Source: Acidiphilium sp. PA (GTDB taxonomy: Bacteria > Pseudomonadota > Alphaproteobacteria > Acetobacterales > Acetobacteraceae). From it: a DNA stretch of 64,000 nucleotides. The notes below the pieces were generated by a model, which was given only the letters and a program-made list of their open reading frames with translations, had not been told where the DNA came from and did not search any database. The number at the start of each line of letters is the position of its first letter. The first letter of the stretch is position 1. The stretch covers positions 62,001-126,000 of the forward strand of contig NZ_JAIMBY010000005.1 of assembly GCF_026191915.1 (NCBI RefSeq), written 5' to 3'. Of this stretch, positions 6,881-60,793 are shown piece after piece. A program made the position numbers and the translations under genes.

Positions 6881-6995
6881 CTTTTTTGAAAAAAAGAAAC
6901 AAAAAACTGTCTCTGAACTGGGGCTCAGGCGTTTGAACCGGCACAGGCACAGATCAACAACGTTTTTTTGCTTCTTTTTTGTTCACAAAAAAGAC
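6881..6995. repeat. AT-rich multi-palindrome repeat, copy A (full length)
   Basis: Two short hairpins flank a larger interrupted palindrome. The left one is CTTTTTT-g-AAAAAAAG at 6881. The right one has a CTTCTTTTTT arm at 6971-6980, loop GTTC, and an A-rich return arm. Between them lie AAAAAACT near 6900 and the partner AACGTTTTTTTG at 6960, enclosing a GC-rich centre with CTGGGGCTCAGGCG. It lies 27 nt beyond the stop codon of the PuuR-like gene. The same unit recurs eight more times in the window. Confidence 0.8.
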
Positions 6996-7022
6996 GTGCT
7001 TGCCGTCTCCACCCCTCGCTTT

Positions 7023-7613
7023 TCAAAAACTGGGCGGCGTATTCGCGCTGATCACTTCGCATAATTCATCGAACGGATTGCGAAACCGGTGCGGAATGCG
7101 GCTTTTGAAGTAATAGGCATCGCCCGCGCCAAGCGCCTGTTCCTGATCCCCCACCGTCACCAGCAGCCGGCCACGCACGATCACGCCCGCTTCCTCGCCA
7201 TCGTGGCGCAGCATCGCTTCGCCGGTATCGGCACCGGGCCGGTAGGTTTCGTGCAGCATCTGCAGCGCGCGTTCCTTGAGCCGGCGCCCGACCATCCGAA
7301 ACGAGATCCGATCCTCGAACGCAATTTCAGTCAGATCCGACGCCCGGAAAAACACGTCCTCCGGCGCCGCCAGATCGATCGTGAAAAATTCGGCAAGCGA
7401 CATCGGGATCCCGTCGAGGATCTTCTTGAGCGACGAAATCGAGGGGCTGACCCGCGCCTGTTCGATCAGCGAAATCGCCCCGTTGGTCACGCCGGCGCGG
7501 CGGGCGAGTTCGCGCTGCGTCAGGCCGAACACCTGACGCATTCGTTTCAGCCGCGCCCCCACCCCAACGTCCTCCGGCCCGCCATCCATCGGACCCTCGC
7601 TGCGAGCGTCCAC
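7023..7613 (-). CDS. puuR: XRE-family regulator with cupin domain (PuuR-like)
   Basis: Transcription factor of 196 residues. An N-terminal helix-turn-helix (LTQRELARRAGVTNGAISLIE, about residues 31-51) is followed by a C-terminal cupin_2 sensor domain with GEEAGVIVRGRLLVTVG and PHRFRNPF. This domain order is that of PuuR, the repressor of putrescine utilisation in enterobacteria. It starts with GTG 7 nt after the alanine dehydrogenase stop, so the two are cotranscribed; an ATG at 7589 is an alternative. Likely targets are the divergent ald/pot region and the aminotransferase promoter. Effector and sites are inferred from family and location. Confidence 0.82.
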   Translation of the reverse strand: MDARSEGPMDGGPEDVGVGARLKRMRQVFGLTQRELARRAGVTNGAISLIEQARVSPSISSLKKILDGIPMSLAEFFTIDLAAPEDVFFRASDLTEIAFEDRISFRMVGRRLKERALQMLHETYRPGADTGEAMLRHDGEEAGVIVRGRLLVTVGDQEQALGAGDAYYFKSRIPHRFRNPFDELCEVISANTPPSF

Positions 7614-7620
7614 GTCCCGA

Positions 7621-8742
7621 TCAGGCCGCCGCGAGCACGAGATCAGCCGTCAGAACCGCTTCGCCCAGCGCGCTCGCCACCGCGGGATGCACGATGCGGC
7701 CCTCGGCGACGTTCAGCCCCGCGCGCAGATGCGGATCGCTGCGCAGCGCCGCCTTCCAGCCATGATCGGCCAGTTTCAGCGTGTACGGCAGCGTCGCCTG
7801 GGCGAGCGCGAAGGTCGAGGTGCGCGGCACCGCACCAGGCATGTTGGCGACGCAGTAATGCACGATGCCATCGACGATATAGGTCGGATCATCATGCGTG
7901 GTGGGCCTGCTGGTCTCGAAACAACCGCCCTGGTCGATCGCGACATCGACCAGCACGGCCCCCCGCCGCATCTGGCCGAGCATCGCGCGCGTCACCAGTT
8001 TCGGCGCGGATGCACCGGGCACGAGCACGGCGCCGATCACGAGATCGGCGTGGAACACCGCCTCCTCGATCGCCTCGGCCGTGGCAAACAGGGTTTTCAG
8101 GTGCGGCCCATACAGATCATCGAGTTGCGCAAGCCGGCCGATCGATTGATCGATGATGGTGACATCCGCCCCCATGCCCAAAGCGATGCGCGCGGCATTG
8201 GTGCCCACCACGCCGCCGCCAAGCACCACGACCCGCGCGGGCGGCACGCCGGGCACGCCGGCCAGCAGCACGCCGAGCCCGCCATTGGCCTTTTGCAACG
8301 AAACCGCGCCCACCTGCACCGCCATGCGCCCGGCAACTTCGCTCATCGGCGCCAGCAGCGGCAGCCGGCCGCGTTCATCGGTGACGGTCTCATAGGCGAT
8401 CGCAACGACCCCGGCCTGCATCAGCAGCCTGGCCTGATCGGGGTCGGGCGCGAGATGAAGATAGGTGAACAGAATCTGGCCCGCGCGCAATTGCTTGCAT
8501 TCGGCCGGCTGCGGCTCCTTGACCTTCACGATCATTTCGGCCCGCGCGAACACGGTGGCGGCATCCGGCACGATCTCGGCACCCGCCCTGCCATAGGCGG
8601 CGTCGTCCATGCCGATGCCCTCGCCCGCGCCGGTTTCGATCAGGATCTGATGACCATGCGTGCGGAGCTCGCGCACCGAGGCAGGCGTCAGGCCGACCCG
8701 GTATTCGTGATTCTTGATTTCCTTCGGAACGCCGATCAACAT
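7621..8742 (-). CDS. ald: Alanine dehydrogenase
   Basis: Catalyses the NAD-dependent interconversion of L-alanine with pyruvate plus ammonia in the cytoplasm. The 373-residue protein is the normal size. It begins with the family signature [18 protein letters not shown], has VKVKEPQ (substrate-binding Lys) and [10 protein letters not shown] (catalytic His), and a Rossmann motif [17 protein letters not shown]. It is first in an operon with the PuuR-like gene and divergent from the Pot transporter operon. Placed in an amine catabolic island, it would recycle the alanine formed by pyruvate-dependent transamination. Confidence 0.95.
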
Positions 8743-9060
8743 GAAACACTCTCCTCCTGGCCAGGACGCCGTTTAGAATAATCAACAGCTTTACTCATGC
8801 CGGCACGACCGCGCAATATCATTTCGTCCATCGGACGGCGTGAGGCGCGCCAGCACGGCGATCACAAAACGATCATTCACACCTCGTTGATTATTCTTGA
8901 CGATGCGAAAAACTTTGGCGATGGTCACGAACAGGGAGCGACCTCAGCACGAGAACAGCGCCACCGGCCGGCGAGGCACGGCGTGTGGCCGGGGAGATTT
9001 GATGCGCGTGCCACTTGACCCGAATCAGCCGGCGCGGATCCGAAACCAGCGCGATCCCGC
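8743..9060. promoter_or_regulatory. Divergent control region between ald and the pot operon
   Basis: This 318-bp non-coding region separates the divergent ald-puuR and pot operons. It contains a perfect 12-bp inverted pair, AGAATAATCAAC (8775-8786) and GTTGATTATTCT (8886-8897), 99 bp apart and in an AT-richer stretch. Paired copies flanking a divergent promoter are what is expected of a shared repressor, and the PuuR-like protein encoded next door is the obvious candidate. CTCCTCC just upstream of ald gives a GGAGGAG ribosome binding site on the minus strand. Confidence 0.5.
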
Positions 9061-10179
9061 GTGACTGAAGCCACCCTGCCGATACGGAACACACAAGGGC
9101 CCGATGGCGCAGCGCCCCGCGGTGCGATCCGCCTGGAGGGGATCAGCCGGGTGTTCGGCGGCGGCATCGTGGCGGTCGATCAGATCGATCTGGACATCCG
9201 CGCCGGCGAATTCTTCACCCTGCTGGGCCCGTCGGGTTGCGGCAAAACCACGCTGCTCCGCATGATCGCCGGGTTCGAGACGCCCGATACCGGACGGATT
9301 CTGATCTCCGGGCGCGAGATGCAGAACGTCCCCCCCCACAAGCGCGCCGTGAATACGGTGTTTCAGTCCTATGCGCTGTTTCCGCATCTCTCGGTCGCCG
9401 AGAATATCGGCTTCGGCCTGCGCATGCGCGGCGTGGCGAAAGCGGAACGCCTCGCCCGCACCGAGCAGATCATGGCCCTCCTGCAGATCGATGCATTCGC
9501 CCGGCGCAACCCCGCGCAACTATCCGGCGGCCAGCGCCAACGCGTGGCCCTGGCGCGGGCGCTGGTGAACGAGCCCGAGGTGGTCCTGCTCGATGAGCCG
9601 CTTTCAGCCCTCGATGCGAAATTGCGCGCCGAATTGCAGGTCGAACTGATGCGCATGCAAAAGCGCCTCGGCATGACGTTCATTTTCGTCACGCACGACC
9701 AGCACGAGGCGCTCGTGATGAGCGACCGGATCGCGGTGATGGAGCGCGGGCGGATGTTGCAGGTCGGCCCGGTGCTCGATGTCTACGAACAGCCGCGCTC
9801 GGTGTTCGTCGCGGAGTTTCTCGGCCTGTCGAACATCTGGAAATTCACGCCGCGGCCCGGCAATGTCGCCGAAACCGCGCTCGGCGCGCTCGCGATCAAC
9901 ACCAGGATCGACACCCAGCGCACCGCGATGATCCGGCCCGAGAAAATCTGGCTCTATCCCGAAGCCGATGCGCCGCGCGACCGGCCCAATACCTTCCCCG
10001 GCGTCGTGCGCGAGGCGATCTACATGGGCGCTTCGACGCAATACAACGTCGAACTGCCCGGCGGCGCCATCGTTCTTGCGCTCGATACCAATAACCAGGC
10101 GGCCGAGCGCAGCTGGGGGCCGGGCGAGCGTGTGGTGCTGGAACTCAAACCCGGCAACATCATGCTGATCGACGGATGA
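9061..10179 (+). CDS. potA: Polyamine ABC transporter, ATP-binding subunit
   Basis: ATPase that powers import of spermidine/putrescine-type substrates, 372 residues. Walker A is GPSGCGKT (56-63), the Q-loop is TVFQSYALFPHLSV, the signature LSGGQ lies at 154-158, Walker B is EVVLLDEPLSALD and the His switch is FVTHDQHEA. A C-terminal TOBE-like domain follows (MIRPEKIWLYP), typical of the Pot/Cys/Mal importers. The start is a GTG. Its gene leads a four-gene transporter operon: 13 nt to the first permease, then 4-nt overlaps or short gaps. PotA and PotG cannot be told apart by sequence alone. Confidence 0.92.
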   Translation: MTEATLPIRNTQGPDGAAPRGAIRLEGISRVFGGGIVAVDQIDLDIRAGEFFTLLGPSGCGKTTLLRMIAGFETPDTGRILISGREMQNVPPHKRAVNTVFQSYALFPHLSVAENIGFGLRMRGVAKAERLARTEQIMALLQIDAFARRNPAQLSGGQRQRVALARALVNEPEVVLLDEPLSALDAKLRAELQVELMRMQKRLGMTFIFVTHDQHEALVMSDRIAVMERGRMLQVGPVLDVYEQPRSVFVAEFLGLSNIWKFTPRPGNVAETALGALAINTRIDTQRTAMIRPEKIWLYPEADAPRDRPNTFPGVVREAIYMGASTQYNVELPGGAIVLALDTNNQAAERSWGPGERVVLELKPGNIMLIDG

Positions 10180-10192
10180 AACCGGCCCAGCC

Positions 10193-11964: not shown

Positions 11965-11990
11965 ACAACCAGATCAACAGGAGGCTAACA

Positions 11991-19941: not shown

Positions 19942-20060
19942 CTTCTTTTTTGAAAAAAAGAAGCAAAAAACTTCTTTACTCTGGGGCAAGGGCGTTTCAG
20001 CCGGCACGGGCCCAGATCAACAAAGTTTTTTTTGCTTCTTTTTTGTTCACAAAAAAGAAG
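19942..20060. repeat. AT-rich multi-palindrome repeat, copy B (full length)
   Basis: Left short hairpin from 19942 (CTTCTTTTTT-gaa-AAAAAGAAG type), central interrupted palindrome with CTGGGGCAAGGGCG on one side and CGGCACGGGCCCAG on the other, and right short hairpin 20035-20060 with a CTTCTTTTTT arm and an AAAAAAGAAG arm around TTGTTCAC. It ends 8 nt from the stop codon of the methyltransferase gene. Confidence 0.85.
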
Positions 20061-20068: not shown

Positions 20069-21160
20069 TCACACCAGCGCAAACACCACCACCGCCTCCA
20101 GATGCACCGATCCCGCAAACTGATCGATCGGGCTGGCCGCCACCACCCCATAGCCCGCCTGGCGCAGCCATTTCGCCTCGCGCGCCAGCGCTTCGGGATT
20201 GCAACTGACATAGATGATCCGCGGCACTTTGGCTTCGATGATCGCCCGCATCTGCGGCCCCGCGCCATCGAACGGCGGGTCGAGCACAATCGCGGCCGCG
20301 CCGGCGAGTTCCCTGGCCGTCACCGGCCGCCGCGCCAGATCGCGGGTCTCGACCGTAATTTTACCGCTCAACCCGGCAATGCGCGCCCCCGCTTCAAGCG
20401 CCGCGCACGCCGGCTTGCTGCCCTCCACCGCATGAACCCGCGCATGCGCCGCAAGCGCACCGGTCAGCGTCCCGATCCCGGCATAAAGTTCCACTATGCG
20501 GGATTTACGGGTCAACCGGCCGGGCAGACCCGCAATCACGGCGGCGCGGATCGCAGCCTCGCCCTCGCTGGTCGGTTGCAGAAACGCCCCCGGCGGCGGC
20601 GCCACGGTCAACCCGCCGAGATCGAGCGTGATCGCACGCGCAACCAGCACGGGCTCATCGCCCAGGCTGATGCGCGGCAGGCCATGCGTGCGCGCGAATG
20701 CCACCAGCCACGAGCGATCCGCCGCCGTCGCCTCGCCATCGACCACCACCGACACATCGAGCCCGGTATCGATCGCGTTGATCAACACACTGCCGGTCTT
20801 GCGAAACCCCGCAAGCCTGCCCAGCAAGTCGCGCAGCGGGCCGATCAGCGCCGCAATATCCGCCCGGGCCAGCGGACATTCGGTGATATCGACCACATCG
20901 CGCGAGCGGGCCGCGTGAAACCCGAGGCGAACCGCCCCGCCCACCCGCATGGCCGCGAAATCGACGCGCCGGCGCGTACCCATCGGGATGAGCAGGAGCG
21001 GTGCGATCGGCGCATCGGAATAGCCGGCCTGAGCCAGCGCCTCGGCCAGCGTCGCAAGCTTCGCCTCGGCGTAGCGCGGGGCTGGCACGTCCTGCTCGGT
21101 ACAACCGCCACAAACGTCGAAATGCCGGCAAACCGCCGGCACCGTTTCAAACTCGATCAT
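20069..21160 (-). CDS. RumA/TrmA-family RNA uracil-C5 methyltransferase-like
   Basis: SAM-dependent RNA m5U methyltransferase family, 363 residues. An N-terminal iron-sulfur motif is visible: Cys11, Cys17, Cys20 (CRHFDVCGGC) and Cys95 (ITECPLA), as in RlmD. The SAM site is VELYAGIGTLTGALA, the catalytic Asp-Pro motif VLDPPFDGA, and the catalytic Cys region YVSCNPEALARE. The TRAM RNA-binding domain present at the N-terminus of RlmD is absent, which is common in alphaproteobacterial homologues. It starts 4 nt after acpS and ends that operon. Target rRNA or tRNA position is not assigned. Confidence 0.87.
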   Translation of the reverse strand: MIEFETVPAVCRHFDVCGGCTEQDVPAPRYAEAKLATLAEALAQAGYSDAPIAPLLLIPMGTRRRVDFAAMRVGGAVRLGFHAARSRDVVDITECPLARADIAALIGPLRDLLGRLAGFRKTGSVLINAIDTGLDVSVVVDGEATAADRSWLVAFARTHGLPRISLGDEPVLVARAITLDLGGLTVAPPPGAFLQPTSEGEAAIRAAVIAGLPGRLTRKSRIVELYAGIGTLTGALAAHARVHAVEGSKPACAALEAGARIAGLSGKITVETRDLARRPVTARELAGAAAIVLDPPFDGAGPQMRAIIEAKVPRIIYVSCNPEALAREAKWLRQAGYGVVAASPIDQFAGSVHLEAVVVFALV

Positions 21161-21603: not shown

Positions 21604-21638
21604 CAAAAGTTTTTGGCGTCTTTTTTACAAAAAAGATG
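21604..21638. repeat. AT-rich palindrome repeat, copy C (short form)
   Basis: Short form with one arm of the central palindrome (AAAGTTTTTGGCGTC) joined to the hairpin TTTTTTacAAAAAA. It lies in the 85-bp gap between rel and acpS, 16 nt beyond the rel stop codon. It is more diverged than the long copies. Confidence 0.6.
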
Positions 21639-26288: not shown

Positions 26289-26341
26289 CCCCCACGCCCT
26301 AATCAGAACCGGGCTTACGCCAACCCGTGAGCGGTGATGCA

Positions 26342-26645
26342 GGGAAGCAAGCAAGGCCAGGGGCTCTCCCTCCGGAGCCATTCCAGCGATGAAGAGCATC
26401 GCTGGAACCTTCGGCTCCTCCGCCCCTGGACCCCGTTAAAGGCGGAGCCTTTAAAATCCATCAGTTTTAGGCAAGGGGAGGGCGCTGCCTCGGTGGCGCC
26501 ATCGATCTGGCCCGTGTCGCCCTCCCCTTGCCTAAAACTAGCGGGTTCTAAGGGATCGAGGCGACCGTGGCCGAAGGCCGCGTAAGCGCCGAGATGCCCT
26601 TAGTGGGGGTCGAGGGGGCAAAGCCCCCCGCCTTGCTTGCTTCCC
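26342..26645. mobile_element. 304-bp non-coding element with 16-bp perfect terminal inverted repeats
   Basis: The ends are GGGAAGCAAGCAAGGC (26342-26357) and its exact complement (26630-26645). Inside are nested perfect stems: CCAGGGG (26357-26363)/CCCCTGG (26423-26429), GGAGCC (26374-26379)/GGCTCC (26413-26418), an 11-bp stem 26381-26391/26397-26407, a 22-bp stem 26463-26484/26518-26539, CTAAGGG (26548-26554)/CCCTTAG (26597-26603) and GGGGGC (26614-26619)/GCCCCC (26623-26628). No coding frame is convincing. It resembles a MITE or composite REP element; no target duplication is evident. It occupies most of the 411-bp gap before the helicase gene. Confidence 0.7.
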
Positions 26646-26699
26646 CGCGTCGCCCCTCACCGGTTGGTATTATGGCTCGGGGCCGCTAAACCCGGGGGT

Positions 26700-30976: not shown

Positions 30977-31894
30977 CTATTCAAAGAATTCCTCGTCGAT
31001 CCGCTTCACGCTGAGCGTCTCCTCAACCCGGCAGCCGACATCGTGGCGGATCATCAGCCGAGCCAATTGTGCGCCGTCGATCAACACAATCCGCTTGCCC
31101 AGACGATCCGCCGTTTCCGTCGCCTGAGCCGAAAAAGCCGATGCGGTGACGAACACCCCTTTCGAAGCCTTGCGCATATCGAGGCTACCGTAGAAATCGC
31201 GAATGGCGCCCGAACCAACCACATTGCCATCGGCATAGCGTTTCGCCTGAACATAAATCCGATCCAGCCCAAGAATATCCTGGTCGATCACGCCGTCGAT
31301 GCCACCGTCCCCACTGCCACCGACCAGCGCACGATCCAGATCGGTCGCGGAGCCGCCGCCATATCCCATGCTCAGAAGCAACCGCACGACCAGCTTCTCA
31401 AAGAAACCGGGCGAGCCCGTTCTGATCCTGTCGAGAAGTTCAGTTGCAAGCGCCGCCTCGAGTTGCCGATGGGCCGCACGCATCATCTCGTCCGGCGTCA
31501 ATGCCTGATCAGCCGCGGTCACCGGAAGCGGTTCCTGCACATCCGGTTCCGACGCTGCGCGAAACGTCTGAAATGCGGGAAACCGGCCCAGAAACCTGAT
31601 GTCGATCCGATCTGGCGGATGCCGCAACACAGCCCGGCCCGCGTCCGTGATCTTGAAATGGGCGCGCCGCGTCAGCTCGACCAGTCCCGCCTTGGCCAGA
31701 TATGCCTTCGCCCAATGCACCCGGTTGGCGAACGTCGCCTGACGTCCCGAGGGCAGCAATTGTGCGCGTTCTGCATCCGTCAGCGAAAATGCGGTGGCCA
31801 GATGATCGACCACGTCGCCGATCCGCCGTTCGCCGGTCGAGGCAAGCTGCAAAACGGGCAACATCAACGTCTGGAAGTCGGGTATCGCCATCAA
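30977..31894 (-). CDS. mrr: Mrr-family type IV restriction endonuclease
   Basis: Predicted endonuclease of 305 residues that cuts modified DNA. An N-terminal winged-helix Mrr_N domain (VLQLASTGERRIGDVVDHLA, LLPSGRQATFANRVHWAKAYL, HFKITDAGR) is followed by a restriction-like catalytic domain: FFEKLVVRLLLSMGYGG, GGIDGVIDQD and IYVQAKRY, giving the D-(Q)xK catalytic signature. The first two residues are both Met, so the start may be one codon later. It is a solitary gene without a methyltransferase, as expected for type IV systems. Confidence 0.88.
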   Translation of the reverse strand: MMAIPDFQTLMLPVLQLASTGERRIGDVVDHLATAFSLTDAERAQLLPSGRQATFANRVHWAKAYLAKAGLVELTRRAHFKITDAGRAVLRHPPDRIDIRFLGRFPAFQTFRAASEPDVQEPLPVTAADQALTPDEMMRAAHRQLEAALATELLDRIRTGSPGFFEKLVVRLLLSMGYGGGSATDLDRALVGGSGDGGIDGVIDQDILGLDRIYVQAKRYADGNVVGSGAIRDFYGSLDMRKASKGVFVTASAFSAQATETADRLGKRIVLIDGAQLARLMIRHDVGCRVEETLSVKRIDEEFFE

Positions 31895-31909
31895 ATCACC
31901 ACCCGGATA

Positions 31910-31944
31910 AAAGTTTTTTGGTTCTTTTTTTCAAAAAAGAACGT
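31910..31944. repeat. AT-rich palindrome repeat, copy D (short form)
   Basis: AAAGTTTTTTGG followed by TTCTTTTTTTCAAAAAAGAA, i.e. one central-palindrome arm plus one terminal hairpin. It ends 4 nt from the stop codon of the ABC-F gene and occupies most of the gap to mrr. Confidence 0.7.
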
Positions 31945-31948: not shown

Positions 31949-33817
31949 CTACCCCACCGCCTCCAGCGCCGCCTCAACCTCCAGCCACACCGCCTCCGCC
32001 GCCTCGATCTCGCCGGCGATCACGCCCAGCCGCTGCTGGACCGCGGTAATCTCGTCGGATTTCGCCCGCGCGTAGAAATCGGCATCCGCGAGTTTCGCCT
32101 CCAGCTTGCGCTTCTCCGCCTCCAGCGTGCGGATCGTCTTCTCCGCATCGCGGCCCCGCTTGCGCAGCGGTGCCGTGGCTTCGCGCGCTTCGGCGCGGGC
32201 CTTGCGGTCTTCCTTGGTCTGAGGAGCGGGTTTCCGATCCTGTGCGGCCCCCGCCGATTTCTGCGTGATCAGGCGCCGGTACGCCTCAAGATCATCGTCA
32301 TATGCCTCGACCTTGCCGCCCGAAACCAGCATCAGCCGGTCCGCCACCAGATCGATCAGATGCGTGTCATGCGTCACCAGAATCACCGCGCCGGGAAAAT
32401 CGGTCAGCGCGCGCACCAGCGCCTCGCGCGCGTCGATGTCGAGGTGGTTGGTCGGTTCATCGAGAATGAGCACCTGCGGTGCATCGCGCGTCGCCAGCGC
32501 CAGCAGCAGCCGGGCCTTCTCACCGCCCGAAAGCTGACCCACCCTGGTCTCCACCCGCGCCGCATCCAGCCCGAACCGCGCCGCCTGCGCGCGCAACTGG
32601 GTGGGGGTCGCGTTCGGCAGCGCGCGCGACAGATGCAGCAGCGGCGTGTCTTCCAGGTGCAGATCATCCTCCTGATGCTGCGCGAAATACCCCACCGTGA
32701 TGCCACGGGTGCGAAAACTGCTGCCGCTCATCGGCTCGAGCCGTCCGGCCAGCGCCTTGGCCAGGGTGGACTTGCCGTTGCCATTCGCCCCCAGCAGCGC
32801 GATGCGGTCCTCCATATCGATCCGCAGCGACACCCCCGAGAGCACGGTCCGCGCACCATACCCGAGCGAAACCCGGTCGAGCGAGAGCAGCGGCGGGGCC
32901 AGTTCGCGCGGCGCGGGAAAACTGAACCGCGTCGGGCTGTCTTCCACGATGGTATCGATCATCGGCATTTTCTGCAGCGCCTTCAGGCGCGACTGCGCCT
33001 GCCGCGCCTTGCTCGCCTTGGCGCGGAACCGGTCGACATAGCTCTGCATATGCGCCCGCTGCTCCGCAATCTTGGCGGCCGCCCGGTTCTGCTGCTCGGC
33101 CCGCTCGGTGCGAATGCGCACGAACTCCGCAAACCCGCCGGGCGTGAGCGTGATCTTGCCGCGATCGAGATGGGCGATGCTGTCAACCGCGCGATCGAGC
33201 AGGTCACGGTCATGCGACACCATCAACACGGCACCGGTAAACCGGGCGAGCCAGTTTTCCAGCCACAGCGTCGCTTCGAGGTCGAGATGATTGGTCGGCT
33301 CGTCGAGCAGCAACAGGTCGGGGGCCGCAAACAGCGCGGCCGCAAGGGCCACACGCATGCGCCAGCCGCCGGAAAAACTCGACATCGCACGATTCTGCGC
33401 GGCATCGTCGAACCCGAGACCCGCCAGGATCGCCCCCGCCCGCGCGCCGGCGCTGTCGGCATCGATGGTGATCAACCGGTCATGGATTTCGCCCAGCCGC
33501 TCCGGGGCCGCGTGTTCGGCCTCGCCGAGCAGCGCCGCCCGCTCGACATCCGCGGCCAGCACCACCTCGATCGGCGTGACCGGCCCGGCCGGCGCTTCCT
33601 GCGCGACCGCGCCCAGTCTGGCGCGGTTGGCCAGGCGGATGGTGCCGCCATCGGGCGCATGAATGCCCTGGATCAGCTTGAGCAGGGTCGATTTGCCCGC
33701 CCCGTTCCGCCCGATCAGCCCGATCTTGCGGCCAGGATCGACCGTGAGTGCCGCAGTTTCGAGCAACGCGCGCCCGGCGATGCTGAAGGAGAGGTTTTCG
33801 ATGCGAAGAAGGCTCAT
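31949..33817 (-). CDS. ABC-F family ATPase
   Basis: Soluble tandem ATPase of 622 residues without membrane domains; ABC-F proteins act on the ribosome. The first nucleotide-binding domain has GRNGAGKSTLL and FSGGWRMRVALAAALFA with LLLDEPTNHLDL. A linker rich in charged residues follows (P-site tRNA interaction motif region). The second domain has GANGNGKSTLAKALAG and LSGGEKARLLLALA with LILDEPTNHLDI. A C-terminal coiled coil (about residues 540-622, AEKRKLEAKLADADFYARAK) is present. The pattern is closest to the YheS/Uup group. It is divergent from ndk. Confidence 0.92.
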   Translation of the reverse strand: MSLLRIENLSFSIAGRALLETAALTVDPGRKIGLIGRNGAGKSTLLKLIQGIHAPDGGTIRLANRARLGAVAQEAPAGPVTPIEVVLAADVERAALLGEAEHAAPERLGEIHDRLITIDADSAGARAGAILAGLGFDDAAQNRAMSSFSGGWRMRVALAAALFAAPDLLLLDEPTNHLDLEATLWLENWLARFTGAVLMVSHDRDLLDRAVDSIAHLDRGKITLTPGGFAEFVRIRTERAEQQNRAAAKIAEQRAHMQSYVDRFRAKASKARQAQSRLKALQKMPMIDTIVEDSPTRFSFPAPRELAPPLLSLDRVSLGYGARTVLSGVSLRIDMEDRIALLGANGNGKSTLAKALAGRLEPMSGSSFRTRGITVGYFAQHQEDDLHLEDTPLLHLSRALPNATPTQLRAQAARFGLDAARVETRVGQLSGGEKARLLLALATRDAPQVLILDEPTNHLDIDAREALVRALTDFPGAVILVTHDTHLIDLVADRLMLVSGGKVEAYDDDLEAYRRLITQKSAGAAQDRKPAPQTKEDRKARAEAREATAPLRKRGRDAEKTIRTLEAEKRKLEAKLADADFYARAKSDEITAVQQRLGVIAGEIEAAEAVWLEVEAALEAVG

Positions 33818-45315: not shown

Positions 45316-45981
45316 ATGCTGAATAAAACAACCCTGCTCGCCGGCGCCGCAATTCTGGCGTCCTTCTTTGGTGCCGTCACCGCCCACGCCGACCCGTCGC
45401 TGACGTTCGGCGTCACGGTCTGGACCGCCGCAACACCCGGCGCCCAAATCGGCGACGCCAACCAGCAGGCCCTGCCGAACAACCCGATCATCATGACATC
45501 AAATCTGATGGCGACCGCGACCTACACCGGTATTCCGAACTGGTCCGACGGCACGCAGTCCAGCAATACCTTCGCCGGCTTTACCAACAACGGCGCCGGA
45601 TTTTCCAACATCAAATATTTCAACAATGGTTCGGCAAACACGGTTCTCAGCACATCGAATTTCGGCAGCGTCGCGCTGTTCGAGCTGAGCTTCACGACCA
45701 ACCACACGTTCTCCGGCACCGTCACCCATGACGACGGGTTCAGCCTCTACAACGCCGCCACCAACACCCAGCTGGTGAACAGCGCCTACCCGACCAACGC
45801 AACCCCGACCAATTTCAATGTCGGTCCGGGCACCTATGACATCTGGTACCTCGAGGCGAACGGTGCGCCGGCAGACTTTCAATTCAGCAACGTGAACGTG
45901 CCGGAACCCGGTTCGCTCGCCGTCCTCGGCACCGCCCTGGTCGGTCTCGGCCTGGTTCTGCGCCGCCGCAAGCGCGCCTGA
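45316..45981 (+). CDS. PEP-CTERM sorting domain protein
   Basis: Secreted protein of 221 residues. Signal peptide MLNKTTLLAGAAILASFFGA to about residue 25, then a Ser/Thr/Asn-rich beta-type ectodomain (FSGTVTHDDGFSLYN), and a C-terminal sorting signal: VPEPGS at 195-200, a hydrophobic helix LAVLGTALVGLGLVL and RRRKRA. Such proteins are processed by an exosortase and linked to exopolysaccharide. The ATG at 45316 after TGGAG is preferred over a frame start at 45277. No exosortase is in the window; an EpsB_2-like transferase is at its left edge. An intrinsic terminator follows. Confidence 0.9.
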   Translation: MLNKTTLLAGAAILASFFGAVTAHADPSLTFGVTVWTAATPGAQIGDANQQALPNNPIIMTSNLMATATYTGIPNWSDGTQSSNTFAGFTNNGAGFSNIKYFNNGSANTVLSTSNFGSVALFELSFTTNHTFSGTVTHDDGFSLYNAATNTQLVNSAYPTNATPTNFNVGPGTYDIWYLEANGAPADFQFSNVNVPEPGSLAVLGTALVGLGLVLRRRKRA

Positions 45982-46041: not shown

Positions 46042-46196
46042 ACCCGAAGCGATCGCCCGGCGCCATCCGCCCGTCAGCACCAATCGAGCACCCATCCCCC
46101 AAATCCCGTCCTCCCAAATCCCCAAACCAAAAAACTAACAAAACCCCCTAACATTTCCCTTTCTCACCCCCCACCGATCATGGTCTAACCCTACCC
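46042..46196 (+). other. C-rich, G-poor intergenic strand
   Basis: The plus strand here, mainly 46078-46180, is made almost only of C, A and T with runs such as ACCCATCCCCCAAATCCC and very few G. The RNA would be unstructured and C-rich, the composition of a Rho loading site. It lies between the PEP-CTERM terminator and the uncharacterised gene at 46.2 kb. Confidence 0.4.
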
Positions 46197-46916
46197 ATGA
46201 TTGCGAACGCGCCGTTCATGCCTGCCGACCCGACCGAGCGCTTCACGGTGATCTTCCGTGCCCTGCAGCGCGCGGTCGCCGACAACGGCTACCGCCTCAA
46301 AATCCACGGCCCGCTCATCGTCCTGATCTGGAACTACCTCGCCCGCCAGATCGCTCGCTTCGCCAAAATCGCATCCCGCCCACCCCAATCCCCGCGCACC
46401 CGTACCCGCGCTCCCAAACCGGTCGAGCGCGAACCCGCCACCCCCAATCCCAAACCACCCCTAACCCTGCCCCGCGGCTTCGCCTGGCTCATCCGCCTGC
46501 TCCCCAACGGCCCCGCCACCGTCGTCGCCGGTGCCGCCGCCCGCGCCGATCTCCAGCTTTTCATGGAAGACCCCATCGTGCTGGACCTGCTCGCCACCCA
46601 CCCCAGCCTCGGCCGCATCCTCCGCCCCCTCCACACCATGCTCGGCCTGCGTCCACCCCAAATCATCAAACGCCCGAGAAAACCCCGGAGCGAACCCACC
46701 AACCCCGCCAACCCCCGCCCCAAACGCCCCCGCCCCAAGCGCCAGCCCGACTTCATGGCCCAATACAAAGTCAACCCCGACGGCAGCATCGACTTCACCC
46801 CCGAACAACTCCGCGACATCCTCGGCCCACCCCCACCACCCGTCCCGCCCTGGCACCACCCCTTCGTGCCCTCGTTCGATGCCAAAAAAATGTGGCGCAA
46901 AGGCCCGCGAGGCTGA
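46197..46916 (+). CDS. Uncharacterised Pro-rich protein
   Basis: Not recognised. 239 residues with no signal peptide or membrane helix. An N-terminal helical region (residues 1-60, ERFTVIFRALQRAVADNGYRL, LIWNYLARQIARFAKIA) is followed by a Pro/Arg/Lys-rich linker (about 61-85), a middle helical block (LTLPRGFAWLIRLLPNG, LQLFMEDPIVLDLLATHPSLGRIL), a second basic Pro-rich linker (about 155-185) and a tail with IDFTPEQLRDILGPPPPPVPPWHHPF. The coding strand is strongly C-rich. Codon third positions and helix spacing support a real gene. It could be a DNA- or membrane-associated protein; nothing more can be said. Confidence 0.65.
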   Translation: MIANAPFMPADPTERFTVIFRALQRAVADNGYRLKIHGPLIVLIWNYLARQIARFAKIASRPPQSPRTRTRAPKPVEREPATPNPKPPLTLPRGFAWLIRLLPNGPATVVAGAAARADLQLFMEDPIVLDLLATHPSLGRILRPLHTMLGLRPPQIIKRPRKPRSEPTNPANPRPKRPRPKRQPDFMAQYKVNPDGSIDFTPEQLRDILGPPPPPVPPWHHPFVPSFDAKKMWRKGPRG

Positions 46917-46930
46917 TGCACGCCTAATTC

Positions 46931-46946
46931 GTTACGATATCGTAAC
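46931..46946. promoter_or_regulatory. Perfect 16-bp palindrome upstream of the malonyl-CoA decarboxylase gene
   Basis: GTTACGATATCGTAAC is fully self-complementary, 15 nt after the preceding stop codon and 298 nt before the decarboxylase ATG, just outside repeat copy E. It looks like a dimeric regulator site, although the repeat lies between it and the gene. Confidence 0.4.
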
Positions 46947-46971
46947 CAAACAGGCAAAGAAGCAAGGGAAG

Positions 46972-47148
46972 TTCTTCTTTTTTGTGAACAAAAAAGAAGC
47001 AAAAAAAACTTTGTTGATTTGGGTCCGTGCCGGCTGAAACGCCCGTGCCCCAGATTAAAAAACTTTGTTAATCTGGGTCCGTGCCGGTGAAAACGCCCGT
47101 GACCCAGATTAAAGAAAGTTTTTTGCTTCTTTTTTTCAAAAAAGAAGC
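46972..47148. repeat. AT-rich multi-palindrome repeat, copy E (extended by an internal tandem duplication)
   Basis: Left hairpin TTCTTCTTTTTT-gtgaac-AAAAAAGAAG type from 46972, right hairpin near 47124-47147. The central part is present twice: ACTTTGTT starts at 47008 and again at 47062, a 54-bp tandem repeat including GGGTCCGTGCCGG and CGCCCGTG. It fills most of the 327-bp gap before the decarboxylase gene, starting 55 nt after the preceding stop. Confidence 0.85.
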
Positions 47149-52106: not shown

Positions 52107-52138
52107 GAGAAGAAGCAGTTCTTTTTTGTAAAAAAGAA
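52107..52138. repeat. AT-rich palindrome repeat, copy F (short form)
   Basis: GAAGAAGCAG followed by the perfect hairpin TTCTTTTTTGTAAAAAAGAA (52117-52136). It begins 2 nt after the squalene-hopene cyclase stop and ends 18 nt before tRNA-Leu. Confidence 0.75.
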
Positions 52139-52156: not shown

Positions 52157-52242
52157 GTGGATGTGGCGGAATGGTAGACGCTGCAGACTTAAAATCTGTT
52201 GCCCGTCAGGGCGTGCGGGTTCGAGTCCCGCCATCCGCACCA
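52157..52242 (+). tRNA. tRNA-Leu, anticodon UAA
   Basis: 86 nt with encoded CCA (52240-52242). Acceptor arms GTGGATG (52157-52163) and CATCCGC (52232-52238), one G-U pair, discriminator A. Anticodon stem GCAGA/TCTGT with loop CTTAAAA; anticodon TAA at 52190-52192. A long variable arm (GCCCGTCAGGGCG) marks it as class II. T-arm GCGGGTTCGAGTCCCGC. The convergent CbbO-like gene ends one base after the CCA. Confidence 0.95.
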
Positions 52243-54777: not shown

Positions 54778-54894
54778 CTTCTTTTTTGTAAAAAAGAAGC
54801 AAAAAACTTTTGTTAATCTGGGCTACGCGCGGTTTCAGCGGCACCGGCACAGATGAATGAAGTTTTTTTGCTTCTTTTTTCTCAAAAAAGGAAG
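54778..54894. repeat. AT-rich multi-palindrome repeat, copy G (full length)
   Basis: Left hairpin ACTTCTTTTTTGTAAAAAAG (54777-54796 plus AAG), central palindrome with ACTTTTGTTAATCTGGG on the left and CAGATGAATGAAGTTTTTTT on the right, right hairpin 54871-54894 with CTTCTTTTTT and AAAAAAGGAAG. It ends 20 nt from the amidase stop codon. Confidence 0.85.
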
Positions 54895-54914: not shown

Positions 54915-55955
54915 TCACCGATGTCCAGCGTTCCCCTCGTTCGGCAGCCCATCGATCGGGCATTCCTCGACGCCGACCGTCGTGCGGGTCATTGCTTCGA
55001 CCATTTCGCGCGTGCCTTCCGGATCGCTGATCCATTTCTGATAGAAATCGTAAGGGCATTCCGCAACACCGGTGACACCCTCGCGCGAGTTGATCTTGCC
55101 GGTATATCCACGATGCAGCAGCTTGAAGAGATGGTTCTCGCTCTGCATGGTCCGCCGCGCATCGCGGATCAGCGAAATCGATAACTGGGCGTAATTGATC
55201 CCATATTCCTCGGTGCCGCATTCGCCCAGCGTCCGCCCGTCGAACCCGACGATCGAGGAATGGCCGAAATACGAATAGACGCCGTCGAAGCCGGTTGCAT
55301 TGGCCACTGCGACATAGACGTTGTTGGCCCAGGCCATCGCCTTGGCCATGATGATCTGCTGTTCCTTGGCCGGATACATGTAGCCCTGGCAACGCACGAT
55401 CAGCTCCGCTCCCTTCATTGCGCAGTCGCGCCAGATTTCCGGGTAGTTGCCATCGTCGCAGATGATCAGGCTGATCTTCAGGCCTTTCGGACCGGTCGAC
55501 ACATAGGTGCAATTGCCCGGATACCAGCCTTCGATTGGCACCCACGGCATGATCTTGCGGTATTTCTGCACGATCTCGCCCTGGTCGTTCATCAGGATCA
55601 GCGTGTTGTAAGGCGCCTTGTGCGGATGTTCCTCGTGGCGCTCGCCGGTCAGTGAAAAGACGCCCCACACCTTGGCTTTTTTGCAGGCGGCGGCGAATAT
55701 GTCGGTCTCCTCGCCGGGACAGGACGATGCGGTTTCGTACATTTCGGCGCTGTCGTACATGATGCCGTGCGTCGAATATTCTGGAAATATAACGAGATCC
55801 ATGCCGGGCAATCCTGTCTTCATGCCCACCACCATGTCCGCGATTTTCCGCGCGTTTTCCAACACCTCGGCCCGGGTGTGCAGGCGGGGCATTTTGTAGT
55901 TGACCACGGCGACGCCCACCGTGTCCTTGCTGCTCGAAATGTCACCGTGAAGCAT
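54915..55955 (-). CDS. amiE: Aliphatic amidase
   Basis: Hydrolyses short aliphatic amides to acid plus ammonia. The 346-residue protein closely follows the Pseudomonas AmiE pattern from its start, [20 protein letters not shown]. The nitrilase-type triad is Glu59 (FPEYS), Lys134 (KYRKIMPW) and Cys166 ([10 protein letters not shown]). The ATG at 55955 has GGAG upstream; a longer frame to 56036 would run into the leader and is rejected. It is preceded by a terminator and tandem hairpins, then by amiR, so expression probably depends on AmiR antitermination. Confidence 0.97.
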
Positions 55956-56057: not shown

Positions 56058-56079
56058 CGATGTCGCCGTTCAATTTTCC

Positions 56080-56110: not shown

Positions 56111-56152
56111 CTTAGGCCGACCTTGCAATCGACCCGCGTTGCTTCGACAAAT

Positions 56153-56764: not shown

Positions 56765-57900
56765 GCGACGTGCGCTCCATAGCCGACCAGATACGGATCC
56801 GCGTCGACCGGCATGCGGGACTGCCAGAAGATGTCGAATTTGCCATCCCCGTTGGCCCGGCCCAGGCGCGTCCATAAATCCGTGTGGCCGCAGAGCGGGT
56901 TGATCGTGATCTGGCCTTGCGGTGCATCGAATGCGGCACCCAGCACCATCGGGCGCAGGCAATCGGTCTCGATCGAATTGGTCATCGCCAGCGCGCGGGC
57001 GAAGATGTGGATCTGAAAATACGCGGCCTCGACGCACATGTTCGTCGTCTGATCGGACCCGAAGCGTTTTTTGTAACGCCGGACGAACGCGCGGTTCACA
57101 TCGGAATCGATCGCCTCGAAATAGGGTGCGGCGGTGATGTGACCGCAGCCGACATCCGGCCCCATCGCGCCGATTTCCGCCTCAGTCGTGGTCAGGCTCG
57201 CGATCGGCATGATGCGCGGATCGAACCCGGCATCGGCATAGGCCTGATACAGATGCGTCGTCGCTTCGCCGACCACGGTGGAGAAAATCACGCTCGGTTG
57301 CACCTGCCGGCATTCACGCATCAGCGGCAGAAAATCGCGCCGCTGCGCCCGCAGGCCGACATAACGCTCACCCACCACGGCACCACCCGCCATGCGCACC
57401 AGCTCGCCCACCACCCGGTTCGACTCGCGCGGATAGATGTAATCAGACCCGATGAGAAAGAAACGGGTACCGTAGGTCTTCAGCAGATACTGTGACAAGA
57501 CCACGCTGTTCTGATTGGGTGCGGCACCGGTATAGATGATGTTGGGCGAATACTCGAACCCTTCGTACAATGTCGGGTACCAGAGCAGCCCGTTCAGCCG
57601 TTCCACCACCGGCAGCACCGCCTTGCGGCTGCTCGAGGTATAGCACCCGAAAATCGTGGTCACCCCGTCATCGATCATCAGGCGCTTGGCGTGCTGGGCA
57701 AACGCCGTCGTGCTCGAACCCGGATCGTAGTGGATCGCCTGCAATTCGCGCCCATTGATGCCGCCGGCCGCGTTGATCTCCTCGATCGCCAGGATCGATG
57801 CCTGCAACTGGGTCTGCTCGATGACCGAGGTGATGCCGGTTTTCGAGAACAATAAACCAACCCGCCATGGCGCGCCGGTTTCTGCCGTGGGATTACCCAT
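56761..57900 (-). CDS. amiC: AmiC-like amide-sensing binding protein
   Basis: Type I periplasmic-binding-fold sensor of 379 residues, without a signal peptide, so it acts in the cytoplasm as in the Pseudomonas amidase operon. It opens WRVGLLFSKTGITSVIEQTQ and has EEINAAGGINGRELQAI, IFGCYTSSSRKAVLPVVE and GSDYIYPRESNRVVGEL. It should bind AmiR without ligand and release it when an amide is present. The order on this strand is amiC, amiR, leader, amiE; in Pseudomonas amiE comes first. A urea or short amide transporter role is less likely given the missing export signal. Confidence 0.88.
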   Translation of the reverse strand: MGNPTAETGAPWRVGLLFSKTGITSVIEQTQLQASILAIEEINAAGGINGRELQAIHYDPGSSTTAFAQHAKRLMIDDGVTTIFGCYTSSSRKAVLPVVERLNGLLWYPTLYEGFEYSPNIIYTGAAPNQNSVVLSQYLLKTYGTRFFLIGSDYIYPRESNRVVGELVRMAGGAVVGERYVGLRAQRRDFLPLMRECRQVQPSVIFSTVVGEATTHLYQAYADAGFDPRIMPIASLTTTEAEIGAMGPDVGCGHITAAPYFEAIDSDVNRAFVRRYKKRFGSDQTTNMCVEAAYFQIHIFARALAMTNSIETDCLRPMVLGAAFDAPQGQITINPLCGHTDLWTRLGRANGDGKFDIFWQSRMPVDADPYLVGYGAHVA

Positions 57901-58022
57901 GCCTGCAACCTTCCGATGCCAAGAAAATTAAATTTTTATTTTGCCGCAGACCCCCAGAACATTGCATGAAAGCGCAAACGCCCGCAAGGATTTTTCGCTA
58001 TGCGCGGACCGGACAAGGAAGC
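57901..58022. other. Upstream region of amiC
   Basis: First part of the 311-bp divergent gap between amiC and the nickel/cobalt permease. An AT-rich block (AAAATTAAATTTTTATTTTG, near 57924-57943) probably belongs to the amiC promoter. No gene or clear operator seen. Confidence 0.35.
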
Positions 58023-58071
58023 GCTTCTTTTTTGAAAAAAGCAGCAAAAAACTTTGTGGGTTTGGGGTACG
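58023..58071. repeat. AT-rich palindrome repeat, copy H (half element)
   Basis: Hairpin CTTCTTTTTTGAAAAAAGCAG followed by CAAAAAACTTTGTGGGTTTG: one terminal hairpin and one arm of the central palindrome; the second half is missing or decayed after 58071. Unlike all other copies it lies in a divergent gap, not after a stop codon. Confidence 0.65.
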
Positions 58072-58211
58072 GGCATTTGGGGCGGTACGGGCATAATATC
58101 GAGATTTTTGTACTGCATAGTTGTTTGCAAACCACGACACCTTGCCTCCAAACCTGTGCGCCGTCTACCGTGATCCCGCGATGGCAATCACCCCACCACA
58201 GGAGCGATCCG

Positions 58212-59276
58212 ATGCTGCGTGCCTTGAAGGCGGTGTTCGATGATCGGAGCGACAACATCCGCGGCAAGATCATCGCGAGCTACGCGTTCCTGATCGCGCT
58301 GAACATCTGCGCCTGGGCCGGCGCGCTGCTCGCGTTCCGCCACAACATCGTCCTGCTCGGTTTTTCCGCCCTCGCCTACGCTTTCGGGCTGCGCCATGCC
58401 GTCGATGCCGATCATATCGCGGCGATCGATTCCGTCACCCGCAAGCTGATGCAGGATAAACAACGGCCCGCCATGGTCGGCTTTTTTTTCTCGATGGGCC
58501 ATTCGATGGTTCTCGTGATTGCCACCGCCGCCATCGCGCTCACCGCCATGACCGTCGACCATCGCTTCACCATGCTCAACAGCGCCGCCGGCATCGTCGG
58601 CACGCTGATCTCGGCGGTCTTTCTGTTCTCGATGGCCGCAATGAATCTGGTGATCGCGCGCTCGGTCTACGCAACATACCGCGCCGCGCGCCGCACCGGG
58701 CGGTACGCCGATGATGATTTCGATATCCTGTTGAACAAGCGGGGCTTCATGTCGCGCCTGCTGCGGCCGCTGTTCCGCCTGGTGACGCGTAGTTGGCAGA
58801 TGCTGCTGGTCGGTCTGCTGTTCGGCCTTGGGTTCGACACGGCGACCGAGGTCAGCCTGCTCGGGATGGGCGGTGCGGAGGCGGTCAAGGGCGTGTCGGT
58901 CTGGGCGATCATGATGCTGCCGATGCTGTTCGCCGCCGGCATGTCGCTGGTCGACACGACCGATGGTATTCTGATGCTCGGCGCCTATGGCTGGGCCTTC
59001 GTCAAACCGATCCGCAAGCTTTACTACAACCTGACCATCACGATCGTTTCGGTCATTGTCGCCGTCATTGTCGGGAGCGTCGAAACGCTCGGCCTGATCG
59101 CCAACGAATTCAGCCTGCATGGCCTGTTCTGGCGCACCATCGGTGCCGCGAACGACCGGTATTTCGGCATGATCGGCTTTCTGATCATCGGAATTTTTGT
59201 CGCGAGCTGGCTCGTCTCCACCCTGGTGTATCGACTTAAGCGGCTCGATGAGGTCGAAATCGCGCCGGTCGAATGA
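58212..59276 (+). CDS. NiCoT-family nickel/cobalt permease
   Basis: Imports Ni2+ or Co2+ across the inner membrane. 354 residues with about eight helices. The signature GLRHAVDADHIAAIDSVTRK contains the metal-binding HAVDADH motif; FFSMGHSMVLV and GLLFGLGFDTATEVSLL are the other family motifs. The ATG at 58212 follows GGAG; an in-frame extension to 57867 crosses repeat copy H and is rejected. Divergent from amiC. No urease, hydrogenase or cobalamin genes are in the window to show which metal enzyme it serves. Confidence 0.92.
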   Translation: MLRALKAVFDDRSDNIRGKIIASYAFLIALNICAWAGALLAFRHNIVLLGFSALAYAFGLRHAVDADHIAAIDSVTRKLMQDKQRPAMVGFFFSMGHSMVLVIATAAIALTAMTVDHRFTMLNSAAGIVGTLISAVFLFSMAAMNLVIARSVYATYRAARRTGRYADDDFDILLNKRGFMSRLLRPLFRLVTRSWQMLLVGLLFGLGFDTATEVSLLGMGGAEAVKGVSVWAIMMLPMLFAAGMSLVDTTDGILMLGAYGWAFVKPIRKLYYNLTITIVSVIVAVIVGSVETLGLIANEFSLHGLFWRTIGAANDRYFGMIGFLIIGIFVASWLVSTLVYRLKRLDEVEIAPVE

Positions 59277-59409
59277 TCCTGAGAACGGCCCAACGTTCTG
59301 GCTTGACAATCAGCAATGCGCGGCGACGACCGCGCGGTCGCGCACATTGTCATTTAATCATCACGCGCGGGCTAACGGTTGCGTGCTTTAATCTCGTGAC
59401 GCAATTCGC

Positions 59410-60660
59410 ATGCGATTGTCTGTTCAAAGCCAGCCGGGTGATGCCATCGACATGACTGAACTGACGATACCGGTCGATCGGCGCGCACCGCCGATCGCTC
59501 CGTCGGCGTGCTGTCCGTCCGTCCAGTTCATCTATTTCGATGCCGGCGGCGGCCACCGGAGTGCGGCGGTTGCGCTGCATCAGATCATCGGGCAGCGCTA
59601 CCCTGGCTGGCGGGTGGAGTTGGTCAATCTGCAGGAATTGCTGCGCCCGGTCGACCCCGTGGTGCGCCTGACGCGCCGGCGCGCCTCGTCCGAGGCGGTC
59701 TATAATGGCATGCTCAAACGCGGCTGGACCTATGGCTCGCTGCCGCTGCTGCGGGGGCTGCAGGCGGGCATCCGCCTGCGCGCCGCACCGATCGAGGCGG
59801 TGCTCGAAGCCCATTGGCGGCGGCGGCCGGCCGACCTCGTGGTTTCGCTGATTCCGAACTTCAACGGTGTGCTGTTCCGTTCACTCCGCCGCGTGCACGC
59901 CGAGGTGCCCTACGTCACGATCATGACCGATATTGCGGATCAGCCGCCGCGGTTCTGGCAAGAGGATCAGGATCAATTCATCATCTGCGGCAGCGACAAG
60001 GCGGCCGCACAGGCGCGCGCGCGGCATTACCGGCCCGAACGTATCATGCAGGTTTCGGGCATGGTGCTCAGCCCGCGCTTCTATCAGACCGCCCCGATCG
60101 ATCGAAGCGCGGCGCGGCGCGAACTCAGCCTCGATCCGGATCGGCCGACCGCGTTGATCATGTTCGGCGGCAATGGGTCGAAACGCGCCCTCACCATCGT
60201 GGAACGCCTCGCGCGCCTGCCTTTCGCGGTGCAATCGATCGTGATGTGCGGCCATAACCGCGTGCTCGCCGCGCAACTTGCGGCGACCGACCGGTGCCGG
60301 GCGATCGGCTTCACCGACCAGGTGCCGCATTACATGCGTCTCGCTGATTTTTTCATCGGCAAACCCGGGCCGGGCAGCATCAGCGAGGCGCTGCATCTTG
60401 GTCTGCCGGTGATCATCGAGCGCAACCGGCGCACCATGCCGCAGGAACGCTATAACGCTGAATGGGTTGCCCAGCACGACGTTGGCCTGGTGATCCGCGA
60501 TCTGCGCCATGTCGGCGAGGCCGTTACGTCGCTCTATCGCGATGACCGGCTGCAACGGTTCCGGCGGAACGCGCTTGGGCTGCGCAATCAGGCACTGTTC
60601 GAAATTCCGGACCGGTTGGCCGCGATCATGGATCGGTCGTTGAGGCCGTTGCAGGGGTAG
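59410..60660 (+). CDS. GT28-family glycosyltransferase (MGDG synthase/UgtP-like)
   Basis: Predicted membrane-associated GT-B glycosyltransferase of 416 residues, resembling diacylglycerol glycosyltransferases. The N-terminal acceptor domain has FIYFDAGGGHRSAAVALHQII and DLVVSLIPNFNGV; the C-terminal donor domain has TALIMFGGNGSKRAL, GFTDQVPHYMRLADFFIGKPGPGS-type motif and ISEALHLGLPVIIE. An ATG at 59452 is an alternative start. Such enzymes make glycolipids that can replace phospholipids. It stands alone; acceptor and donor are inferred from family only. Confidence 0.8.
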   Translation: MRLSVQSQPGDAIDMTELTIPVDRRAPPIAPSACCPSVQFIYFDAGGGHRSAAVALHQIIGQRYPGWRVELVNLQELLRPVDPVVRLTRRRASSEAVYNGMLKRGWTYGSLPLLRGLQAGIRLRAAPIEAVLEAHWRRRPADLVVSLIPNFNGVLFRSLRRVHAEVPYVTIMTDIADQPPRFWQEDQDQFIICGSDKAAAQARARHYRPERIMQVSGMVLSPRFYQTAPIDRSAARRELSLDPDRPTALIMFGGNGSKRALTIVERLARLPFAVQSIVMCGHNRVLAAQLAATDRCRAIGFTDQVPHYMRLADFFIGKPGPGSISEALHLGLPVIIERNRRTMPQERYNAEWVAQHDVGLVIRDLRHVGEAVTSLYRDDRLQRFRRNALGLRNQALFEIPDRLAAIMDRSLRPLQG

Positions 60661-60671
60661 GGTCTGATCGG

Positions 60672-60793
60672 AGCTTTTTTTGTGAAAAAGAAGCAAAGAG
60701 CTTTCCGACATCGGGATACCGAAAGTTTCAAACGGCACGGACCCAAATTAACAAAGTTTTTTTTGCTTCTTTTTTGTTCACAAAAAAAAAGAT
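60672..60793. repeat. AT-rich multi-palindrome repeat, copy I (full length)
   Basis: Left hairpin GCTTTTTTTGTGAAAAAGAAGC type from 60672, diverged centre with CGGGATACCGAAAGTTTCAA and CGGCACGGACCCAAATTAAC, then CAAAGTTTTTTTTGCTTC and a right hairpin with loop GTTCAC (to 60793). It starts 11 nt after the glycosyltransferase stop and lies 125 nt before soxY. Confidence 0.8.

Follow-up and report, generated by a model that had tools for sequence, protein, structure and literature searches.

AT-rich, hairpin-ended repeats lying mostly behind stop codons in Acidiphilium sp. PA resemble REPINs

The genome of Acidiphilium sp. PA (G000, 4.54 Mb) carries a dispersed family of short, AT-rich palindromic repeats, nine copies of which lie in a 64,000-nt stretch of one contig (C45; NZ_JAIMBY010000005.1, positions 62,001 to 126,000), hereafter the window (Table 1). 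All nine copies listed in an initial annotation of the window were found, and eight of them begin 2-55 nt past a stop codon on the matching strand, as that annotation had proposed and as gene calls from our own codon-usage script bear out. Its further proposal that the same hairpin always faces the gene did not hold: the end with a 6-nt loop (B end) faces it at 6881, 19942, and 46972, and the end with a short loop (A end) at 21604, 31910, and 60672. An Rfam search of the window gave no family above its gathering score except a tRNA at 52157-52239.

Table 1. Copies of the AT-rich repeat in the window, with a multi-copy gene cassette that lies beside one of them; relatives are given by genome number.
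Feature	Position	Strand	Ends and neighbouring genes	Same site in other genomes
Doublet	6881..6995	+	A-end hairpin left, B-end (GTTCAC loop) right; 27 nt from stop of gene 7023-7589 (-)	Copy in A. rubrum; empty in G011, G007, G005, G010, G012
Doublet	19942..20060	+	B end 8 nt from stop of gene 20069-21160 (-)	Empty in G011, G007, G005, G012; unbroken regional alignment to A. rubrum
Short copy	21604..21638	-	16 nt from stop codon	Full doublet in G011, G012, G005; short copy in A. rubrum; empty in G007, G010
Singlet (A end and arm)	31910..31944	-	4 nt from stop of gene 31949-33817 (-)	A. rubrum alignment ends at 31909
Multi-copy gene cassette	46120..46958	+	239-aa protein; often abuts palindrome; neighbour, probably not mobiliser	
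Doublet with duplicated centre	46972..47148	-	55 nt past stop of multi-copy gene 46197-46916	Single-centre version in A. rubrum
Collapsed copy, one chimeric hairpin	52107..52138	+	2 nt past stop codon	Full doublet in A. rubrum; nothing in G011, G012, G007, G010, G005, G003
Doublet	54778..54894	+	20 nt from stop of gene 54915-55955 (-)	Present in A. rubrum, absent in G010
Singlet and part of central region	58023..58092	+	Between divergent starts 57900- and 58212+; sole window copy not behind a stop codon	A. rubrum version similarly truncated
Doublet	60672..60793	+	A end 11 nt past stop of gene 59452-60660 (+)	

Positions were counted in 0.86 Mb of the genome, about a fifth of it and including the window, where a plain mismatch scan yielded 64 elements (33 doublets and 31 singles), all nine window copies among them. 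Within this sequence the hairpin TTCTTTTTT-N1-7-AAAAAAGAA has 65 exact matches, and 93 when up to two mismatches are allowed, against 0 and 0 for the reversed sequence, which excludes chance as the origin of the repeats; with three mismatches the counts are 99 and 14. The hairpin pattern with one mismatch allowed is found at 184 places in the Acidiphilium sp. PA genome and its reversed control at none. The unit first described as a three-hairpin palindrome does exist, as an inverted doublet, but the basic unit is a half-element that occurs singly or doubled. The half-element comprises a terminal purine run (about GGAAGGAAG), a hairpin of the form (C/G)TTCTTTTTT-loop-AAAAAAGAA(G/C), an arm, CAAAAAACTTT, and then a variable stretch; full copies are two such half-units in inverted orientation. 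One A end, with a 1-2 nt loop, is combined with one B end, with a 6-nt loop of the GTTCAC type, in 81 of 116 doublets; several copies at loci L227-L234 of genome G098 carry another B-end hairpin (GCTTCTTTTTCTTCAGAAAAAGAAG type). Short copies are single ends or collapsed doublets, and a second end is recognisable by eye in 12 of the 32 copies first listed as single. The purine-run motif, defined after the element ends had been inspected, lies beside 58 of 96 AT-rich ends compared with 3.3% of random intergenic 25-mers. Short, bounded by terminal inverted repeats, and dispersed in many copies, the repeats in these respects resemble miniature inverted-repeat transposable elements (MITEs).

Comparison with other genomes revealed empty sites at several of the window positions. 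Beyond A. rubrum (Acidiphilium rubrum, placed by NCBI in Acidocellaceae, Acetobacterales), five sites allowed a comparison: three of five relatives have a copy at 21604, and none of the relatives compared has one at any of the other four sites. For the remaining four window copies, both flanks were present in no relative other than A. rubrum. At least two short copies (52107 and 21604) match full doublets in other species, and copy 52107 looks as if it had been left by a deletion between two T6 tracts. A block of palindrome plus gene cassette in A. rubrum is absent from the Acidiphilium sp. PA site, purine run included; the empty site lacks the run, and therefore the run belongs to the element there. 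At 30977-31891, where Acidiphilium sp. PA has what we take from its translation to be an Mrr-like restriction gene, A. rubrum carries different sequence, and the border of the difference is the singlet at 31910.

The distribution of the family is patchy. The A-end pattern, with two mismatches allowed, was searched in 299 genomes of the GTDB family (Acetobacteraceae) and in a class-wide sample; it occurs in 90 of the 299, spanning 38 of 102 genera, and there was no reversed-control match among the matches listed. At least 20 matches were counted by hand in each of 45 family genomes, the richest genome (G212) has 623 forward and 631 reverse matches, and hairpin counts within the genus Acidiphilium run from 0 to 229. 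None of the 380 class-wide genomes outside the family has the pattern; the reversed control matched once there, in G468. Presence in 90 of the family genomes and absence from 209 provide a ready phyletic profile for finding a mobilising enzyme. Plasmids were considered as carriers and rejected, the sole match being at 72% identity on an Acidiphilium multivorum plasmid.

The large interrupted palindrome, which the initial annotation placed at the centre of the element, does not covary, while the two small terminal hairpins do, each by itself. When arms were paired with their own or with swapped partners in 116 doublets, found with an end finder that kept the better-paired of overlapping candidates, the pairing energy strongly favoured the own partner in the terminal hairpins (z -13.8 and -13.9); there was no own-partner gain in the central arms (z +2.0) or outer flanks (z +0.8), and long-range pairing between the hairpins gave z -1.6 each (p 0.07). 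The two hairpins of a doublet differ at 53 basal positions; both local pairs hold at 36 of these, a single one at 17, and neither at 0, and of 23 cases with a broken local pair, 6 retain the long-range pair. One set of loci, mostly from A. rubrum, was picked by an exact B-end match, so the invariance of the B end is partly built in. Among 55 aligned copies, the local-hairpin structure exceeds 500 of 500 shuffles both in covariation score and in percentage paired, whereas 424 and 441 of 500 shuffles reach the values of the long-range structure. Cells in which both sides have changed number 39 for the local structure versus 15.7 in shuffles, and 11 versus 13.4 for the long-range one. One giant hairpin as the conserved fold is thus unsupported by covariation, and the large palindrome is taken to result secondarily from the head-to-head arrangement of two related half-units. 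Across genera (36 rows) the central arms do show an own-partner advantage over swapped arms (z -2.7); this signal looks like shared descent of the two halves, because within-genome swaps pair better still on average. The part that is kept appears to be the two small hairpins and not the long stem, which is indicated independently of any enzyme.

A habit of lying at gene 3′ ends is borne out as a preference, but not as the strict rule first proposed: of the 64 elements, the flanking genes are codirectional for 44, convergent for 14, and divergent for 4, while 1 element is inside a called open reading frame and 1 at a contig end. The three kinds of gap make up 0.58, 0.19, and 0.23 of intergenic bases. 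Within codirectional gaps, 37 of 44 elements are closer to the stop than to the start, at a median of 20 nt from the stop versus 42.6 under uniform placement (0 of 5000 draws as low); within convergent gaps, many of them short, 11 of 14 lie 5-18 nt from a stop. In loci of eight genomes, where an end also counts as “single” if its partner has diverged beyond what the pattern detects, single A ends face the stop of their outer neighbour gene in 42 cases and its start in 18 (p 0.0027; 28 versus 5 within 40 nt), and paired A ends do so in 33 and 20 (29 versus 9 within 40 nt), whereas for paired B ends there was no overall preference (10 stops, 11 starts).

A second, GC-rich palindromic repeat lies at 26300-26667; it has 11 copies in the 0.86 Mb, none between divergent genes, and its window site is empty in five relatives in which both flanks align. 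Each copy is bordered by inverted repeats specific to its own site (own -56.2 versus swapped -43.1 kcal/mol, z -4.0), a feature not seen in 19 AT-rich doublets. For the AT-rich family, site-specific hairpin targets were rejected, since own flanks pair no better than swapped ones in these 19 doublets, which come from an older list of 51 elements that missed some inexact hairpins. The termini of both families consist of the same kind of purine run, and both share the 3′ habit. A stricter purine motif, counted against the same older list, occurs at 38 intergenic places: 20 belong to the AT-rich family, 9 to the second family, and 9 lie elsewhere; judged by eye, four of these last 9 resemble AT-rich copies that were missed and one resembles the second family. 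Part of the 3′ preference is general, because this second, unrelated family shows it too.

REPINs are inverted doublets of repetitive extragenic palindromic (REP) sequences that are moved by a RAYT (Y1) transposase, their singlets being diverged remnants (PMC3116915, PMC8049555, in the portions available). On the evidence above, the copies described here are read as REPIN-like, non-autonomous mobile repeats with a putative mobiliser, to which we assign a probability of roughly 0.58. The inverted doublet of half-units, usually an A and a B end, would be the form that is copied, and short copies would arise from it by collapse between T6 tracts or by loss of one half. That the terminal hairpins are the part kept paired would fit a unit recognised through single-stranded hairpins, in a ‘clover’ fold, or one that folds in RNA. 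Copies would persist mostly just behind stop codons, where they should be least harmful, and would there place a hairpin shortly after the stop codon, with T-runs behind the hairpin. An enzyme other than RAYT may copy the repeats.

Several observations weigh against this interpretation. No mobilising enzyme was found, PF01797 having no match in Acidiphilium sp. PA or in 19 of 25 element-rich genomes searched, and the GTAG/CTAC tag occurs in only 2 of 96 ends; the annotation's suggestion of a dispersed, REP-like family is nevertheless supported, with the 3′ preference as a tendency. According to PMC3116915 (available portion), REPIN doublets are placed at random in extragenic space, whereas the AT-rich elements lean to stop codons. 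Turnover is slow: in 132 kb, 22 of 22 positions in Acidiphilium sp. PA and 22 of 24 in A. rubrum are shared, the two unshared A. rubrum positions being the palindrome-plus-cassette block and a copy with a decayed trace in Acidiphilium sp. PA. Flanking direct repeats are in slight excess (z 3.0; at least 7 nt in 7 of 115 versus 3.3 expected), and singlets are not clearly more diverged, with an identity of 0.856 versus 0.871 for doublets (109 of 500 shuffles as high). The covariation has its own weak points. For the local structure, 72 of 500 shuffles are as high in pairs with a change on both sides and 23 of 500 in pair types; seven B-hairpin rows with T5/A5 stems are misaligned by one column, which inflates that helix; some loci were chosen by an exact B end; and the finder favoured better-paired candidates. 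Templated repair of imperfect palindromes can also yield hairpin covariation.

The 3′ position invites explanations in terms of the transcript. The A-end hairpin could be a selected mRNA 3′ element that slows translation termination or blocks 3′ exonucleases, like E. coli REPs near stops, an account that we hold tentatively and consider less likely than not, although effects on mRNA 3′ ends are plausible. It would fit the way in which A ends face stops, mostly within 40 nt, the placement of codirectional elements nearer the stop than uniform placement predicts, and the covariation of the A-end hairpin; REPs within 15 nt of a stop codon have also been reported to stall ribosomes (PMC12306157, excerpt). 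However, the unrelated GC-rich family has the same habit, which would be expected if repeats generally avoid genes and promoters; paired B ends lack the preference; the closeness to stops in convergent gaps is set in gaps that are often short; and at four of the five comparable sites no relative beyond A. rubrum carries a copy.

A speculative extension of the REPIN-like interpretation, which we regard as doubtful though worth stating, is that a RAYT-independent machinery found across the bacterial family copies hairpin-ended miniature elements by their terminal purine run and hairpin, not by their interior, and mobilises both the AT-rich family and the GC-rich one of 26300-26667, which end up behind stop codons. 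If this were true, the AT-rich element would supply a large part of the genome's 3′-untranslated-region hairpins where it is richest (1,254 end matches in a 4.2-Mb genome).

A bidirectional intrinsic terminator, whose central arms would fold and at whose T-runs RNA polymerase would release, with selection both spreading and keeping copies at gene ends, is unlikely. It had been noted early that no U-run follows the proximal hairpin and that the element is not a normal intrinsic terminator; in doublets, T-runs do follow the central arms on each strand, but few of them have a stable hairpin abutting. Of the 387 T6+ runs that lie outside called genes in the 0.86 Mb, 291 fall within the elements, and several G098 copies have, by eye, a strong central GC hairpin followed by T-runs, the most terminator-like version; the bias toward gene ends given above would also suit a terminator. 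Yet a hairpin of ≤-6 kcal/mol abuts only 19 (45 nt) or 38 (90 nt) of the 291 element runs, the corresponding counts being 25 and 26 for the 96 other intergenic runs and 34 and 47 for the 153 runs inside called genes, and this smaller share speaks against a simple terminator. In addition, the central cores barely exceed mononucleotide shuffles in stability (median z -0.6), their arms show no covariation, and neither the central stem nor the distal T-run is present in singlets.

Among candidate mobilisers for REPIN-like copying, a RAYT that moves the repeats as in classical REPINs, its gene having been lost later or missed, is very improbable. The doublet and singlet anatomy would suit it, and a Y1 match was found in 6 of the 25 element-rich genomes searched; however, PF01797 has no match in G011, G012, G005, or G032, any more than in Acidiphilium sp. 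PA, nor in the richest genomes (G116, G212, and G163), and the GTAG/CTAC tag is nearly absent from the ends. An autonomous transposon with the same ends was also rejected, there being no single-gene interval between strict terminal motifs in the 0.86 Mb.

The remaining candidate, the 239-aa protein of the multi-copy gene cassette, drew attention by its company. Matches to the cassette gene number 38 in Acidiphilium sp. PA and 49 in A. rubrum, and none was found in a plasmid search; the protein has no Pfam, NCBIfam, or PHROG match, and in several genomes the cassette has recurring left (CTTTCTCACCCCCC) and right (GTTACGATATCGTAAC-like) flanks. A PEP-CTERM signal protein (PF07589) is encoded beside it at 45316-45981. 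In the relatives, the gene upstream of the malonyl-CoA decarboxylase gene is another one, which we take to be atpC-like. In 760 kb, four of six cassettes lie within 200 nt of a palindrome versus 80 of 625 other genes; a palindrome or half-palindrome lies directly upstream of 6 of 10 copies in G011 (by eye); cassette and palindrome form the single block at the A. rubrum site described above; and among 60 relatives, the cassette is present in 7 of 7 genomes with at least 20 hairpins and in 9 of 53 others. The protein is also under purifying selection, with 146, 87, and 485 differences at the codon positions. In 40 further, hand-chosen genomes searched with a seven-sequence profile, however, the cassette occurs in 9 of 20 element-rich and 2 of 20 element-free genomes; it is missing from the richest (G116, G212, G163) and from G098, it is abundant in G007, G001, and G009, which hold 1-4 hairpins, and the protein is predicted to form a low-confidence helical fold (mean pLDDT 62). 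Since 11 of the 20 further element-rich genomes, the richest included, are without it, the cassette does not explain the palindromes, and a mobiliser role for its protein, in the place that RAYT has for REPINs, is disfavoured by this phyletic pattern and is the least probable of the explanations considered.

A REPIN-like population with hundreds to more than 1,000 ends per genome, present in a single family, absent from the 380 class-wide genomes outside it, and mostly unaccompanied by a RAYT match, implies either that another enzyme can act on such repeats or that they persist without one.

No title or abstract in a literature search of open PMC papers names the AT-rich family, and four sequence strings gave no paper. 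Lichenicola cladoniae is, we assume, a relative of the group that bears the AT-rich repeats. The RepRanger survey gives 1,369 REPs for this species in its text and 6,569 in its table, counts that may include members of the AT-rich family; that survey counts single hairpins by thermodynamics, and the portion available does not describe the family (PMC12306157). Like the GTAG- and CGTC-tagged REPs, of which the CGTC-tagged class is said to lack a dedicated transposase, the elements are short dispersed palindromes (PMC3733652, excerpt); unlike them, they carry CGTC/GACG in 11 of the 96 ends and GTAG/CTAC in 2. By description, they can also be compared with ERIC/RU-1 (127 bp) and YPAL/RU-2 (about 168 bp), which are likewise intergenic MITE-like palindromes; YPAL is reported with empty and filled sites and with target duplications of variable length (PMC2229807, excerpt), whereas in the AT-rich family the half-element also occurs alone and there is no clear target duplication. 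The elements differ from REPINs in having an AT-rich hairpin in a GC-rich genome, two distinguishable ends, and a preference for stop codons, with no GTAG tag and no RAYT match. With the doublet anatomy of REPINs but no RAYT match in this genome, no GTAG tag, and singlets not clearly more diverged than doublets, the family looks like a REPIN family but is not classed as one. With REPs and REPINs it shares a conserved hairpin unit, found both as inverted doublets around a variable spacer and as singlets, an intergenic position, and hundreds of copies, and its covariation favours local hairpins over one long hairpin, like the ‘clover’ fold named in PMC3116915 (available portion).

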